64,000 bases of DNA. Source: Metallosphaera hakonensis JCM 8857 = DSM 7519. Its GTDB lineage: Archaea; Thermoproteota; Thermoprotei_A; Sulfolobales; Sulfolobaceae. Where the stretch lies: the NCBI RefSeq assembly GCF_003201675.2, contig NZ_CP029287.2:1116001-1180000 (forward strand). The letters are read 5' to 3'. Positions 6,578 through 32,960 of the stretch are shown here, piece after piece. The first letter of the stretch is position 1. Each line of letters opens with the position of its first letter. The notes beneath the pieces were generated by a model. The model searched no databases. It was given only the letters and a program-made list of their open reading frames with translations, and was not told the origin of the DNA. Position numbers and translations under genes: made by a program.

Positions 6578-7118
6578 AATTCTTCCTTGGAAGGAATACG
6601 AGAAAATTAGACTTGAGAGAGTCAGAAGGTCAGCTCAATTAAAGAGAGGAAGGAGAATAGAGCTAGGAGACAGGTTATCAATCCTTTTTGAGAACAAGGA
6701 TACTGTGCTTCAACAAATCCAAGAGATGGTCTATCTAGATAGACTGAGCAGACCTGAAGACATAAAGAGAGAAATAGAAATCTATAGTTCCATACTTCCC
6801 TGTAATGGGAAGATTAAGGCTAGCCTTTATATCTATGCGGAGAACGAGGAGGACCTGAGAAAAGTCTTTAGAACTTTGCCAAAAATCTATGACAGTATTT
6901 TTCTGAAGATAGGTGATAAACTAATTAAGGGAGAACCTGAAGCGGGAAGGGAACAGGGAGACGAGTTCAGCACGGTACAATTTCTAACATTTGATCTAGA
7001 GAACTCCAGGGACACAAACATGGAGGTCCTTGTGGTTCACGAAAATTATAGGATTAGAGCTAAAGTAGATGAAAACCTAGCGAAACAACTGATTGAAGAA
7101 GCCTACCAAGAATGCTAG
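6561..7118 (+). CDS. DUF3501-like protein with apparent non-AUG start
   Basis: Reading this frame from just after an in-frame TGA (6552-6554) gives EILPWKEYEKIRLERVRR, then ELGDRLSILFENKDTVLQQI and EMVYLDRLSRPEDI, which is the pattern of DUF3501 proteins; these are commonly found next to rubrerythrin and GlpC-like Fe-S proteins, exactly as here. Conserved sequence begins well upstream of the first GTG (6705), so a 137-residue product from 6705 would lose the conserved N-terminus. No ATG, GTG or TTG exists in the 150 bases between the in-frame stop and 6705 in this frame. The best start by ribosome-binding-site spacing is ATA at 6561 (alternatively ATT at 6564), giving about 185 residues. Role: unknown redox or peroxide-linked function. 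Confidence 0.7.
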   Translation: MIQVNEILPWKEYEKIRLERVRRSAQLKRGRRIELGDRLSILFENKDTVLQQIQEMVYLDRLSRPEDIKREIEIYSSILPCNGKIKASLYIYAENEEDLRKVFRTLPKIYDSIFLKIGDKLIKGEPEAGREQGDEFSTVQFLTFDLENSRDTNMEVLVVHENYRIRAKVDENLAKQLIEEAYQEC

Positions 7119-7481
7119 TAAAGTGACGAGAGGTTCAAGGCAGGGTAAATGTTTTCACAATAAATTTAATAGTTCTGTGCATCGTTTCATAAAGAACCAC
7201 TTTAGTTTTCATCACGCAAAGTAACTAAAGTGGTCATTCAAACTATTTTATCCAAATTGCTTGAAACTTTTTACTGATTAGATTTTAGTGAGGTATTTGT
7301 GGCACTAAAAACGTCCTCACTCTTCAATTACACTTAGTCGTAGTCTAAAGCGTAACCTAGCATCTAAAGTCACTCAATTTATCAGAGAAGGTTAAGTTGT
7401 CCTTTAAAGCCTCAGGAAGTGTAATTATTCCTGTAAAAATTCTCGCCACTTATCCTACTATCAAAAGCAAGGGCGAGAAAA
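7119..7481. other. 363-base gap with a long perfect inverted repeat
   Basis: No gene was recognised between the convergent DUF3501-like and DUF1404-like genes. The stretch is AT-rich and carries a 12-base perfect inverted repeat listed separately. Confidence 0.5.
7196..7234. repeat. 12-base perfect inverted repeat (hairpin)
   Basis: ACCACTTTAGTT (7196-7207) and AACTAAAGTGGT (7223-7234) are exact reverse complements separated by 15 bases. It lies between two convergent operons and could act as a bidirectional transcript end, an RNA processing site or a miniature transposable-element relic. Confidence 0.7.
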
Positions 7482-27913: not shown

Positions 27914-29032
27914 GTGGAGAACGTGGGCATAGTAGGAATCGGTTGGTATGGCTTCTCCACCCACGTCCATGACCTATCTTTCAGGGAAATGATGTTTGAA
28001 GCTGCACAACGTGCTTTTTATGACGCTGGAGGGATGAATCCTAGGGAACAGGTGGATGCCTTCATCTCATGTCAGGAGGATTTCTGGGAGGGCATCGCAA
28101 TTTCCGACGAATTCGCACCAGACCCCATAGGTGGGTCAATGAGACCTACCATGACAGTCGCGGGAGACGGAGTTCAAGGCTTGGCCCACGGCATCATGCT
28201 TGTGAACTCCGGTGTAGCTGACGTCGTAGTAGTCGAATCCCACGCGAAACCAAGCGATATTATGACTCTCCCCGAAGTGGTGGAACTGGCCATGGACCCA
28301 CTGTACGTTAGGAGAGCTAAGATACCCAATTATCACTTCATTGCGGGTCTAGACGCCATGAATTTCATGCATAGAACCGGCGTAACCAGGGAGGACTTGG
28401 CTGAAGTGGTAATTAAAAACAGGTCTAACGGCCTAAAAACAGGAAGAGCCCCCTATGCATCTCTCATGACAAGGAATGATGTACTCAACCAAGAGATGGT
28501 TGTGGAACCATTATCCCAGGTTGATATTGCCCGTCCAGTTGACGCTTCAATAGTGATCGTTTTGGCGTCGGAGACCTTTGCAAGGAAGTTCAACGATACA
28601 CCTATCTGGATCACCGGAATAGGATTCGCCACGGATAACTCCAACTTAGAGCTGGCCAATCTTGGGGAGGCAGGATACCTTAGAAAGGCATCAGCCACGG
28701 CGTTCCAAATGGCCAAGATCGAGTCACCACTGAAGGTTAACGGAGTGTTCGTAGATGATAGGTATAGCTATAAGGAACTACAGCACCTCGAGGCCATTGG
28801 TATTATGGATGTAGCAGAGAAGTTGAGGCAGGGATACTTTCACAGTGGAAGCTACTTACCAGTGAACCCAAAGGGAGGCCATCTAGCTAAGGGTTACCCA
28901 CTCGAAGCTTCAGGTCTATCCCTAGTTCTGGACGCAGTGGAGTACCTGAGGGAGGGACAAGAGGCAGCCATAGTGGGGAGCTGGAGAGGGATACCCACTT
29001 TCACTGGAGGTGTGGTGGTGATGCAGAGATGA
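27914..29032 (+). CDS. Thiolase-fold protein without catalytic cysteine (SCP2-thiolase / Ltp2-like)
   Basis: A 372-residue thiolase-superfamily protein starting at GTG. At the place where thiolases carry the nucleophile (CxSG) it reads TVAGDGVQGLAHG near residue 79, with no Cys; the second half has DDRYSYKELQHLEAIG near residue 278 in place of the His motif, and the C-terminal region has no Cys-Gly motif. It therefore cannot work as a normal thiolase. Relatives such as Ltp2 pair with DUF35 proteins and cleave beta-hydroxyacyl-CoA by a retro-aldol reaction. Overlaps the next thiolase-fold gene by ATGA. Aldolase role is inference. Confidence 0.8.
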   Translation: MENVGIVGIGWYGFSTHVHDLSFREMMFEAAQRAFYDAGGMNPREQVDAFISCQEDFWEGIAISDEFAPDPIGGSMRPTMTVAGDGVQGLAHGIMLVNSGVADVVVVESHAKPSDIMTLPEVVELAMDPLYVRRAKIPNYHFIAGLDAMNFMHRTGVTREDLAEVVIKNRSNGLKTGRAPYASLMTRNDVLNQEMVVEPLSQVDIARPVDASIVIVLASETFARKFNDTPIWITGIGFATDNSNLELANLGEAGYLRKASATAFQMAKIESPLKVNGVFVDDRYSYKELQHLEAIGIMDVAEKLRQGYFHSGSYLPVNPKGGHLAKGYPLEASGLSLVLDAVEYLREGQEAAIVGSWRGIPTFTGGVVVMQR

Positions 29033-30204
29033 AGACCAACTTGAAGTACAGGAAAGTTGCGGCAATAGGTGCTGGAATGACGCAGTTTAGGAGGAGGGTT
29101 TTGGACACTCCACAGGAAATGGCTTGGGAGGCATCAAGGAAAGCTCTCGATGAGGCTGGACTTGAATTGAAAGACATCGACTGCGTGGTCATAGGCAGTG
29201 CACCAGACGCATTCGACGGTGTACACATGAAGGGTGAGTACTTAGCCCACGGAGCCGGAGGAATTGGAAAGCCAGTGAGTAGAGTCTACGTAGGAGGGGC
29301 AACAGGGGTGATGACAGCGATCTCTGGTTGGTACCATGTGGCAAGTGGGATGTGCAAGAAGGTATTAGCAGTGGCTGAGGAGAAAATGAGTCCAGGAAGG
29401 CCTCATCCCCAGGCCGTGTTTAGATATATCTGGGATCCTATCACTGAGAAACCGCTGAACCCAAATCTGATCTGGATTTTCGCCATGGAAATGCATAGAT
29501 ATATGTTCGTGAATAAGGTGAGCAAGGAAGAAATTGCCCTAGTCTCGGTGAAAAACAAGAGGAACGCCTCCAATAACCCTTACGCGCAACTTGGAGGAGA
29601 GATAACTGTGGACGACGTTCTAAGGAGCGAAGTACTAGTATGGCCCGTACAGCTCTTAGACGTGAGTCCAGTTAGCGATGGCGCTGCTGCTATGGTTTTC
29701 GTGGATGGAGACATCGCTAGGAGATATACAGATATTCCAATATGGGTAGAAGGAGTGGGATGGACCTTGGACAACACGTCCTGGCCAGGACGAGAATTGG
29801 CTTACCCTAGGTACCTCGAGAACGCGGCTAGGATGGCGTATACGATAGCTGGCATAGAGAGGCCACAGAAAGAGATAGATGTAGTTGAACCCTATGATCC
29901 CTTTGATTACAAGGAACTCCATCATTTAGAAGGGCTATTGTTGGCAAGGAAGGGAGAAGCTCCACTCCTACTGAAGGAGGGCTACTTCGATAGGGACGGG
30001 GAAATACCCAGTAGTCCCTCTGGAGGACTCTTAGGCGTGGGAAACCCCATTGCTGCTGCCGGGCTAATGAAGGTAATCAGTATCTATTGGCAACTCAAGG
30101 GAACCGCAGGTAAGATGCAAGTCAAGAAACCAGTCCACACCGGAGTAGCTCAAGCCTGGGGAGACCTGATGCAGGCCTCTACTGTTATCGTCATGAGAAA
30201 TTAA
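29029..30204 (+). CDS. Second thiolase-fold protein without catalytic cysteine (SCP2-thiolase / Ltp2-like)
   Basis: A 391-residue thiolase-superfamily protein. The nucleophile position reads VYVGGATGVMTAISGWYH near residue 85, without Cys; the later motif reads VEPYDPFDYKELHHLEGLLL near residue 284, matching the tyrosine/aspartate-containing segment of Ltp2-type aldolases better than the NCF/His motif of thiolases; the end (AWGDLMQASTVIVM) also has no Cys. N-terminal KVAAIGAGMTQF is standard. ATGA overlap with the gene before, and 9 bases to the DUF35 gene after. The two thiolase-fold proteins may form a heterodimer or two separate pairs with the two DUF35 proteins. Confidence 0.82.
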   Translation: MKTNLKYRKVAAIGAGMTQFRRRVLDTPQEMAWEASRKALDEAGLELKDIDCVVIGSAPDAFDGVHMKGEYLAHGAGGIGKPVSRVYVGGATGVMTAISGWYHVASGMCKKVLAVAEEKMSPGRPHPQAVFRYIWDPITEKPLNPNLIWIFAMEMHRYMFVNKVSKEEIALVSVKNKRNASNNPYAQLGGEITVDDVLRSEVLVWPVQLLDVSPVSDGAAAMVFVDGDIARRYTDIPIWVEGVGWTLDNTSWPGRELAYPRYLENAARMAYTIAGIERPQKEIDVVEPYDPFDYKELHHLEGLLLARKGEAPLLLKEGYFDRDGEIPSSPSGGLLGVGNPIAAAGLMKVISIYWQLKGTAGKMQVKKPVHTGVAQAWGDLMQASTVIVMRN

Positions 30205-30213
30205 GGTGAGATC

Positions 30214-30711
30214 ATGGTTCACCCGTTAAAAGAAGAGGAAATGAAGGAGCACGAAACAGTGTCCCACAAACCCGAGGCTAAGTACTCCTACACGGCTGGA
30301 CAGGCCCTGAGCGCCTTCCTTTTGGGACTTAAACAGGGGAAGATAATTGGGAGGAAGTGCCCCAAATGTGGGAGAGTATACGTCCCACCGAGGATGTACT
30401 GCGAGGATTGCTTCTATCCCACATCCCAATGGATAGAGGTTCAGGATGAGGGAATAGTTATGACAGCCGTTGCAAGTTTCATCTCCTGGACTAGGGACAG
30501 ACTTGAGGAACCGGAGATAGTGGGCACAATAAGGCTTTTCCCCTCCTCTGCTAGAGATTACGTATATCCAGGGCTTTTCCATAGGATATGTTGTTCCTTC
30601 GATGACGTGAAGACCATGAGAATATTGGGCAAGATGGTTAAGGCCAAATGGAGACCCCAAGAGAAGAGAGTAGGCAGTGTAGATGACATAGAATGCTTTG
30701 AGGTGATATGA
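30214..30711 (+). CDS. DUF35 zinc-ribbon / OB-fold protein A
   Basis: A 165-residue protein with a basic-acidic N-terminal tail, a rubredoxin-like zinc ribbon (KCPKCGRVYVPPRMYCEDCF, about residues 49-68) and a C-terminal OB-fold that binds acyl-CoA in related proteins. Good binding site (AAGGTGAG) before ATG 30214. DUF35 proteins are obligate partners of thiolase-fold enzymes in archaeal mevalonate complexes and in steroid side-chain aldolases (ChsH2 with Ltp2). The zinc ribbon DNA (30328-30414) is identical to that in the next gene although the rest is not. Confidence 0.88.
   Translation: MVHPLKEEEMKEHETVSHKPEAKYSYTAGQALSAFLLGLKQGKIIGRKCPKCGRVYVPPRMYCEDCFYPTSQWIEVQDEGIVMTAVASFISWTRDRLEEPEIVGTIRLFPSSARDYVYPGLFHRICCSFDDVKTMRILGKMVKAKWRPQEKRVGSVDDIECFEVI
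30328..30414 (+). repeat. 87-base identical block, copy 1
   Basis: This block is identical base for base to 30826-30912. It encodes 29 residues, from LKQGKIIGRKC to YCEDCF, the zinc ribbon of both DUF35 genes. The flanks differ at once on both sides (A versus G just before apart from three matching G, T versus A just after). Confidence 0.95.
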
Positions 30712-30714
30712 ACG
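30700..30714 (+). promoter_or_regulatory. Ribosome binding site and displaced start of DUF35 protein B
   Basis: A perfect GAGGTGAT (30700-30707) is followed directly by ATGA (30708-30711), which overlaps the stop of DUF35 A exactly as in the other coupled gene pairs here. The ATG frame ends after five codons (MNVVG). Dropping one A at 30711-30712 would join the ATG to the frame of DUF35 B, adding TSWDKVGKESELLSWKDV at its N-terminus. Confidence 0.6.
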
Positions 30715-30765
30715 TCGTGGGATAAGGTTGGGAAAGAAAGCGAACTCCTGTCATGGAAAGACGTT

Positions 30766-31137
30766 ATGGAGGTTGATAGATACGTCTACACCCTGGGGAT
30801 AGATGGAGAGACCTTCATGCAGGGGCTTAAACAGGGGAAGATAATTGGGAGGAAGTGCCCCAAATGTGGGAGAGTATACGTCCCACCGAGGATGTACTGC
30901 GAGGATTGCTTCATCGAGAACAAAGATTACATCGAAGTACATGAACCATATCTCGACTCCTATACTGTGATTCACTACGATAACAGGGGGGCAAGACTTG
31001 AACCCTTAACCATTGGTCTTGTGAGATTTAAAGGGGTCTCAGGAGGTTTACTAGCTTTGGTCGATGGGAAGCCAGAGATTGGGAGAAAGGTTGAAATCGA
31101 GAGTTTCGATATACCTCTAAGGGTAAAGGTTGTATGA
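30766..31137 (+). CDS. DUF35 zinc-ribbon / OB-fold protein B (possible start frameshift)
   Basis: From ATG 30766 the product is 123 residues with the zinc ribbon (about residues 27-46, identical to protein A) and an OB-fold (SYTVIHYDNRGARLEPLTIG near residue 65). The frame is open back to the TGA of DUF35 A; the upstream 18 codons read TSWDKVGKESELLSWKDV, which looks like the natural N-terminus of DUF35 proteins. The start that would make it is one base out of frame (see the entry at 30700-30714). So this gene is either N-terminally shortened, starts at a non-AUG codon (ACG 30712), or carries a sequencing error. ATGA overlap with the following ligase gene. Confidence 0.8.
   Translation: MEVDRYVYTLGIDGETFMQGLKQGKIIGRKCPKCGRVYVPPRMYCEDCFIENKDYIEVHEPYLDSYTVIHYDNRGARLEPLTIGLVRFKGVSGGLLALVDGKPEIGRKVEIESFDIPLRVKVV
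30826..30912 (+). repeat. 87-base identical block, copy 2
   Basis: Second copy of the identical zinc-ribbon block, 498 bases downstream of the first and in the same reading frame. Full identity at synonymous positions points to recent duplication or gene conversion. Confidence 0.95.
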
Positions 31138-32960
31138 TATGGAAGCCTGATAGGGAGTGGTTAGAGGAGAGTAATATTGGCAAATGGCTCCAGGAGAACG
31201 GCCAAAATCTAGCCCAGTTTCAGGAGTCTACTTGGAGACAACCACAACTTTTTTGGCCTACTTTCCTTGATAAGATAGGAGTCAATTTCAGTAAAAAACC
31301 AGAGAGGGTACTGGATCTCTCCCAAGGCAAAGAGAGGGCAAAATGGTTCGTTGGTGCGAGACTAAACGTGTCGAATATGTTAGATGACTCTCCTGAACCA
31401 TTTGTGACCTCCATGGACGAGGAGGGGTACATCAAAACCTTTTCCAGGTCAGAGACCCTTCAATGGGCCAAATCTATCTCGAGCTGGCTAAAGAGAAACG
31501 GTTTATCCAAGGGTGATCGAGTGGGAGTTTACATGCCCATGACCGCAGAGATCGTTCCCATAATCCTTGGAATAGTGAGGGCGGGAATGGTCGTAGTGCC
31601 ACTCTTCTCGGGCTATGGAAAGGAACCTATCAAGGTGAGGATGGAAGACAGCCAGACTAAGGCAATCTTCACCGTGGACACCTACGCGAGGAAGGGGAAG
31701 GAGATTGAACCCTTTAGAAATCTTGAAGATCTTAAAATACTGAAAATTGCTCTAATGAAAAAACATGAACTCAAAGAATACATAAATCTAAGAGAGGTAG
31801 TAAAGGAAGGTGGAGATGGATACGAGGAGACGGAATCTGAGGATCCGTTAATGATAATTTACACTTCTGGGACCACCGGGAAACCCAAGGGATGCGTTCA
31901 CGTGCACGCCGGTTTTCCCGTTAAGGCTGCTGCAGATATGTACTTTCACTTCGACCTTAGAAAAGATGACACCATAACTTGGATATCAGACATGGGCTGG
32001 ATGATGGGGCCATGGTTACTTTTTGGGGCACTACTTCTCAGGGGGAAGATAGCCTTACTAGACGGATTCCCCTCTACAGATGTCCTGGGTAGATTCGTGG
32101 ACTTGCTGAATGTGAGAGTTCTAGGATTATCTGCCAGCTTGATTAGGAGTTTGAAATCCACTGACCCAAACATGAAACTCGATGTGAGAATAGTTGGAAA
32201 TACGGGAGAACCCATAGATCCAGAGAACTGGAAATGGATCCATGAAGCGACAAGCTCACCTGTTATTAATTACTCAGGTGGAACCGAAATCTCAGGGGGT
32301 ATCCTCGGAAACTACGTAGTCAAGGAGATTAAACCTTCCGCGTTTAACGGCGAGTCCCCAGGAATCAAGGCTGATATATTTGATGAAACAGGGGCCCCTG
32401 CACCTCCAAATCAAGAGGGAGAATTGGTGATATTGAGCGTGTGGCCTGGCATGACAAGGGGGTTCTGGAGTGATATGGAAAGATACCTTTCCACTTACTG
32501 GTCAAGATGGAAGGGAGTATGGGTTCACGGAGATCTGGCGCTAAGAGATGAGGAAGGGTTTTTCTTCATAGTGGGGAGGAGCGACGATACCATAAAGATA
32601 TCGGGCAAGAGGGTAGGGCCTGGAGAAATTGAAGCCGTACTTAATTCCCATAAAGAGGTCATAGAGAGCGCCTGTGTAGGCATACCGGATCCGGTGAAAG
32701 GAGAGAGAATAATATGTCTTGCAGTACCAAAGGATTGGAACTCGATCCTAGAGGATGAGCTCCTAAAGTTCCTAGAAGAACGCTTAGGGAAGGCTATAGC
32801 GCCCTCCGCCGTGAAGCTGGTTCCAGAATTACCTAAGACCCGTAATGCGAAGATAATGAGGAGGTTAATACGAAACACTGTCCTTAAGAGGGATCTAGGC
32901 GATACATCTTCGCTTGAAAACCCACAGTCGTTAGAATATATAAAAAAGATATTGCCTTGA
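31134..32960 (+). CDS. AMP-forming acyl-CoA synthetase
   Basis: A 608-residue adenylate-forming ligase of the acetyl/propionyl-CoA synthetase branch. Core motifs: IIYTSGTTGKPKGCVHVH near residue 241, DMGWMMGPW near residue 285, NYSGGTEISGG near residue 378, HGDLALRDEEGFFFIVGR near residue 465 followed by DDTIKISGKRVGPGEIE, and the C-terminal catalytic lysine in LPKTRNAKIMRR near residue 565. It activates a carboxylic acid to its CoA ester with ATP. Coupled to DUF35 B by an ATGA overlap, so it probably loads the substrate of this pathway. Chain preference cannot be read from the sequence. Confidence 0.93.
   Translation: MIWKPDREWLEESNIGKWLQENGQNLAQFQESTWRQPQLFWPTFLDKIGVNFSKKPERVLDLSQGKERAKWFVGARLNVSNMLDDSPEPFVTSMDEEGYIKTFSRSETLQWAKSISSWLKRNGLSKGDRVGVYMPMTAEIVPIILGIVRAGMVVVPLFSGYGKEPIKVRMEDSQTKAIFTVDTYARKGKEIEPFRNLEDLKILKIALMKKHELKEYINLREVVKEGGDGYEETESEDPLMIIYTSGTTGKPKGCVHVHAGFPVKAAADMYFHFDLRKDDTITWISDMGWMMGPWLLFGALLLRGKIALLDGFPSTDVLGRFVDLLNVRVLGLSASLIRSLKSTDPNMKLDVRIVGNTGEPIDPENWKWIHEATSSPVINYSGGTEISGGILGNYVVKEIKPSAFNGESPGIKADIFDETGAPAPPNQEGELVILSVWPGMTRGFWSDMERYLSTYWSRWKGVWVHGDLALRDEEGFFFIVGRSDDTIKISGKRVGPGEIEAVLNSHKEVIESACVGIPDPVKGERIICLAVPKDWNSILEDELLKFLEERLGKAIAPSAVKLVPELPKTRNAKIMRRLIRNTVLKRDLGDTSSLENPQSLEYIKKILP

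Follow-up and report, generated by a model that had tools for sequence, protein, structure and literature searches.

Introduction

Concerted evolution limited to one domain of a protein is already known, and the closest described systems differ from the present locus in instructive ways. The mtrA-1 and mtrA-2 genes of Methanococcales and Methanomicrobiales (PMC4632066) are, like the genes described here, archaeal paralogues of the same operon in which recurrent conversion has homogenised one part within each species and left the rest different; there, however, a whole catalytic domain is involved, whereas here the block is about 30 codons long, smaller than one domain, with barely alignable flanks, and it lies in a different phylum and protein family. 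A survey of prokaryotic concerted evolution that covered 26 genes (PMC6053082) reported the same signature, with paralogues closer within a species than orthologues at both synonymous and non-synonymous sites, but its seven archaeal cases are all from methanogens and it includes no Sulfolobales, DUF35 or sulfocyanin gene; the survey was directed at genes, and so short a block may go undetected in that kind of screen. In RF1 and RF2 (PMC4530459), conversion was likewise confined to domain 3, a region with the same function in both paralogues, although that case comprises two separate ancient events, without continuing genus-wide homogenisation.

Proteins of the DUF35/ChsH2 type, as reported for SSO2064 (3IRB, PMC2954200), the thiolase/HMGCS complex (6ESQ), ChsH2-Ltp2 (6OK1), Shy-Sal (PMC12329534) and PhlB (PMC6392133), combine a zinc ribbon with an OB-fold and occur beside thiolases, as do those studied here, but each of these reports describes one kind of DUF35 per complex. 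No description of conversion between two DUF35 genes was found in the DUF35/ChsH2 literature that we searched, nor any report of concerted evolution in DUF35 or in Metallosphaera. What appears unusual in the block shared by two neighbouring DUF35 genes of Metallosphaera is its small size, its fixed edges and its uniformity across the genus.

Results

Two adjacent DUF35 genes in a thiolase operon

The window, a 64-kb stretch of the single 2.54-Mb contig of Metallosphaera hakonensis, contains the following genes around the locus:

27914..29032, + strand: second thiolase-like protein, same operon (NCBIfam NF004722, E 1e-181)
29029..30204, + strand: thiolase, same operon, presumed DUF35 partner (NCBIfam NF004721, E 6e-240)
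30214..30711, + strand: gene A, DUF35/ChsH2-type zinc ribbon and OB-fold, 165 aa (Pfam zf-ChsH2, 6e-11)
30712..31137, + strand: gene B, DUF35/ChsH2-type, orthologue of Sulfolobus SSO2064 (PDB 3IRB) (Pfam zf-ChsH2, 9e-13; 3irb, E 4e-39)
31134..32960, + strand: acyl-CoA/acetyl-CoA synthetase-like gene, downstream (Pfam AMP-binding, 1e-56)

Both genes encode the rubredoxin-like CxxC...CxxC zinc ribbon (PF12172), with scores of 42.4 bits for A and 48.2 bits for B against a cutoff of 23.2. For the C-terminal OB-fold (PF01796), B scores 24.4 bits, below the curated cutoff of 27.1, and A has no Pfam match; the fold was instead recognised from a model of A whose match to DUF35 structures extends over most of its length, and from the alignment of B with 3IRB over its length. 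Gene A has a conserved C-terminal tail that is lacking in gene B of Sulfolobaceae. Judging from their operon neighbours, which are thiolases, proteins A and B would be expected to act as subunits binding these thiolases.

The start of gene B has a feature of its own. Its first ATG lies at 30766, yet conservation in relatives begins at an ACG codon at 30712, which we regard as a candidate start codon. Four other Metallosphaera and the relatives in Sulfolobus have ATG at this codon, and ACG is present both here and in one further genome (G005, L006); codons 2-18 after the ACG (SWDK.GKESELL.WKDVMEV; 30712-30765) are kept, with synonymous changes.

An exact repeat with sharp edges

An exact-repeat search of the whole window found one pair of repeats of at least 25 bp, an 87-bp segment present once in each DUF35 gene:

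30314..30327, + strand: 5' edge of copy A, codons 36-38, with 5 differences from copy B
30328..30414, + strand: converted block copy A, codons 39-67 of gene A (LKQGKIIGRKCPKCGRVYVPPRMYCEDCF), four zinc cysteines; exact repeat, concerted in six species
30415..30825, + strand: unconverted spacer between the blocks (gene A OB-fold and tail, gene B N-terminus)
30826..30912, + strand: converted block copy B, the same 29 codons in gene B; exact repeat

The two copies lie 498 bp apart on the + strand in the same reading frame and contain all four zinc cysteines (C49, C52, C63 and C66, gene A numbering). A search of the whole genome recovered these two copies and no third. The 45-nt flanks are 47% identical between A and B on one side and 29% on the other, and at the background A/B identity of about 40% the probability of an 87-match run arising by chance is negligible. 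The search thus bears out an earlier note on this DNA, which had reported 87 identical bases at 30328-30414 and 30826-30912, every synonymous position included. Its further remark that the sequences diverge at once on both sides holds for the 3' side, and for the 5' side apart from 14 partly matching bases (101 nt at 95%). The equivalent of 30314..30327 falls within the identical tract in most other Metallosphaera and outside it here.

To place the block on the protein, a single-sequence structure model of gene A (pLDDT 41) was replaced by an alignment-based model (pLDDT 86.6; PDB matches 3irb, 6esq, 6ok1 and 9myr), whose best structural match is 3IRB, followed by the thiolase/HMG-CoA synthase, ChsH2-Ltp2 and Shy-Sal complexes. 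In this model the block spans the end of helix 29-40, strand 44-48 and the knuckles up to Cys66-Phe67, and ends before strand 72-76; in SSO2064 the ribbon comprises residues 43-76, with Cys49, 52, 63 and 66 (PMC2954200). Because it stops short of the last ribbon strand, the block as modelled is the best-conserved stretch of the protein rather than exactly the zinc-ribbon domain.

The same block in six Metallosphaera species

Both genes were collected from six Metallosphaera genomes, one per species, as well as from other Sulfolobaceae and other archaea. Loci of the genus match records of M. javensis (L033) and M. yellowstonensis (L034), in keeping with the placement of the host in Metallosphaera. 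An exact A/B repeat of 87-104 bp occupies the same position in all six Metallosphaera genomes, running in each from codon 34-39 of gene A to codon 67 (68 in one species), and beyond these shared edges A/B identity falls to 36-47% just to the left and 24-38% just to the right. Over the 87-bp core the two copies show no difference within any of the six genomes, and none of 169 degenerate codons differs (95% upper bound 1.8%). Any two species, by comparison, differ at 11-21 of the 87 core bases, mostly synonymously, with 8-16 of the 24-28 comparable synonymous codons changed. The expectation that ribbons should resemble each other within a genome more than they resemble their orthologues was thereby confirmed.

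Without exception, these changes occur in both copies. Among the 32 core columns that vary across the six species, 23 are third codon positions, and amino-acid replacements also travel jointly (K/R at 40 and 51, P/T at 50, M/L at 61, V/I at 55), with species-specific changes common to both copies at residues 40, 41, 45, 50, 51, 54, 55, 61 and 65. Each of the six species has private states that are present in both copies, which requires one transfer or more in every terminal lineage. The earlier reading of recent gene conversion was therefore correct as to conversion, while "recent" understates a process that has been repeated. For the most closely related pair of species (G003 and G004), 10 of 28 synonymous codons differ in the core (36%) versus 35 of 80 in the A flank (44%), and the mean age of the last homogenisation is roughly 5% of the G003/G004 split or less, a proportion of our own that is uncorrected for multiple hits.

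Phylogeny and distribution of the pair

In a tree of the flank proteins from 14 genomes across Sulfolobaceae, A and B each form one clade with support of 100/100, whereas in a tree of the ribbon DNA the two copies from one genome group together; separate A and B clades in the ribbon DNA were rejected with all rows kept (delta lnL 215.6, AU p 5e-65). Taken together, these opposing topologies indicate that the pair is ancient and that the block was homogenised secondarily and repeatedly. A recent duplication was rejected: tandem DUF35 pairs were recovered at 95 loci (some of them duplicates), deep archaeal lineages included, and with the fully supported flank clades this makes the duplication older than the species compared. 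Among the 95 tandem pairs, homogenisation of the ribbon is seen in Metallosphaera only. Elsewhere, codons for the same amino acid match in 565 of 1147 cases across 81 pairs, or about half, which is the background level.

Two other loci of this survey are worth recording. In Thermoproteus sp. AZ2, a metagenome-assembled genome (L050), a 76-bp exact block joins positions 6623-6698 and 7063-7138, in the C-terminal tails of both DUF35 genes. This shared segment is the tail that gene B of Sulfolobaceae lacks, and not the ribbon. In the ribbon of a second locus (L069), 14 of 15 shared codons are alike but the exact stretch is only 24 bp, and codon bias may explain it.

Sulfocyanin genes and other repeats

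As a control, 464 kb of this genome were scanned, which revealed tandem sulfocyanin (SoxE) genes with differing N-termini and a 475-bp identical block (G000:C1:1069500-1070920, L120). Sulfocyanin pairs in three Metallosphaera genomes (L120, L185 and L186) share exact blocks of 475-488 bp within each genome, and over 420 aligned columns the copies show 0 differences within a genome and 101-108 between genomes. On sequence comparison, this pair is a second, larger case of domain-limited concerted evolution, and conversion between neighbouring paralogues looks like a habit of Metallosphaera.

Local repeats occur in other gene clusters as well. A cluster of genes for small membrane or secreted proteins (G000:C1:1286291-1293242, L128) contains many local identical blocks of 30-243 bp with divergent flanks, and three paralogues at G000:C1:1049567-1058700 (L119, L120) share patchy identical blocks of 35-455 bp and are possibly converting too.

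Base composition of the block

In Metallosphaera, GC3 averages 0.70 in the block versus 0.57 and 0.49 in the rest of the genes, and the ribbon exceeds its own flanks by 0.12 in A and 0.20 in B; in non-converting relatives the corresponding differences are 0.00 and +0.01 (GC3 0.34/0.34 and 0.33/0.33 in 16 non-converting Sulfolobaceae, the ribbon being no richer). With amino-acid content and local codon usage taken into account, each of the six species still shows a positive excess, though a small one (z 0.7-2.8); the species are related and so not independent observations. The sulfocyanin domains of converting pairs deviate weakly in the same direction. The raised GC3 of the ribbon weakly hints at GC-biased conversion.

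Discussion

Recurrent conversion of a sub-domain block

We conclude, with a probability of about 0.92, that the A/B block has been under repeated non-allelic gene conversion, that is, concerted evolution, in Metallosphaera; the process is probably ongoing. In the sequence of events that we propose, two ancient adjacent DUF35 paralogues would have undergone a first transfer, mostly from A to B, that equalised about 100 bp of the ribbon. That stretch would then have been the only one sufficiently alike for strand exchange between the genes, which lie 498 bp apart on the same strand, such that later mutations in either copy would be erased or copied across, and the block would evolve as one unit per species while the flanks stayed diverged. 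The block would end where homology runs out, and selection probably also helps to fix its limits by removing tracts that bring along the wrong OB-fold or N-terminus. The recombination step may be RadA-type pairing, or annealing or template switching between direct repeats. As to direction, Metallosphaera copies have the outgroup A state at diagnostic residues 36, 47, 59 and 61 and the B state at residue 50, and these few sites suggest that A was probably the main donor in the founding transfer and that exchange later ran both ways.

Whether the two ribbons need to be identical is a separate question. Both might have to fit the same partner surface or CoA site, with selection keeping them identical and favouring conversion, an explanation that we consider unlikely. 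It draws on the four cysteines and 29 codons common to both genes, species-specific amino-acid changes included, on the CtSal/CtShy complex, in which the DUF35 zinc finger shapes the active site of the partner (PMC12329534), and on the survey in which, of 26 genes showing long-lasting concerted evolution, 22 code for subunits of stable complexes (PMC6053082). However, protein-level selection cannot equalise synonymous codons, and conversion is required in any case. In the solved CtShy-CtSal structure, moreover, the main contact is made by the N-terminal helix and the OB subdomain, largely outside the block (PMC12329534). In 16 other Sulfolobaceae genomes with the same gene pair, the ribbon proteins are 59-78% identical (about 22-41% of residues differ) and the ribbon DNA of A and B, which does not convert there, is about 60-76% identical, so identity is not needed for the system to work. 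Together with the homogenised tail of Thermoproteus AZ2 and the like behaviour of the sulfocyanin pairs, these differing ribbons speak for homology, and against a requirement to match, as what determines the block, and they leave the earlier proposal that the segment must match a common partner unsupported. Conversion that is limited by homology and filtered by selection is a sufficient explanation; selection may still eliminate some tracts or act in favour of the result, and in Metallosphaera it could favour identity of the protein block.

An element acting at the DNA or RNA level, such as a binding or recombination site, could constrain the 87 bases in both genes and would account for the identity of every synonymous position and the shared edges, but such an element should be conserved between species, and with 32 of 87 positions variable among the six this is very improbable. 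Still less credible is a single recent conversion or cassette transfer confined to this species: it would explain the perfect identity seen here, synonymous sites included, but is refuted by the six-species comparison, where five other species are identical within themselves at the same position with other sequences. Least probable of all, and for practical purposes excluded, is a collapsed or copied repeat of the kind that short repeats can produce in draft genomes, as the locus lies here on a single contig and six separate genomes show different sequences with the same edges and intact flanks.

A possible fusion product in a sister lineage

Recurrent conversion between direct repeats in matching frames would sometimes be accompanied by deletion of the 498-bp unit, comprising the spacer at 30415..30825 and one block, that a crossover can remove, joining the A N-terminus to the B OB-fold. 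A gene with this arrangement was found in a sister lineage belonging to another Sulfolobaceae genus (G009, a draft assembly), whose thiolase is 88-90% identical to the Metallosphaera orthologues. Its locus has exactly one DUF35 gene (contig 21: 5115-5561; L159/L183), with the A/B join inside the block: residues 1-36 share 67-75% identity with A, the ribbon resembles that of Metallosphaera in type, and the remainder shares 56-62% identity with B. A search of the G009 genome did not recover the A tail at any other place, a weak result given that the search had no positive control. The chimera is either the predicted deletion or an assembly collapse, and we treat it as a lead; whichever its origin, it suggests that near-identical ribbons were present in the G009 lineage too.

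Implications

Prokaryotic protein genes rarely show long-lasting concerted evolution of one of their parts. A wider reading of our results, which we put forward tentatively and at less than even odds, is that very frequent conversion over short tracts generally maintains the similarity of tandem paralogues in Metallosphaera. Such conversion would be able to use as little as about 90-100 bp of homology between genes some 0.5 kb from each other, and it may be GC-biased; sub-domain blocks would evolve as units across the genus, and an occasional crossover in the block would fuse two genes into an A/B chimera, as in G009. The very short, sharply bounded, genus-wide block described here is usable for work on minimal homology, tract length and the rate of non-allelic conversion in Sulfolobales. 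It further offers a natural setting in which to test archaea for GC-biased conversion; the main study of this bias in prokaryotes could not assess it there, as its sole archaeal dataset (Sulfolobus) showed little recombination (PMC4450053). Finally, blocks such as this one illustrate that short conserved domains can mislead gene trees.
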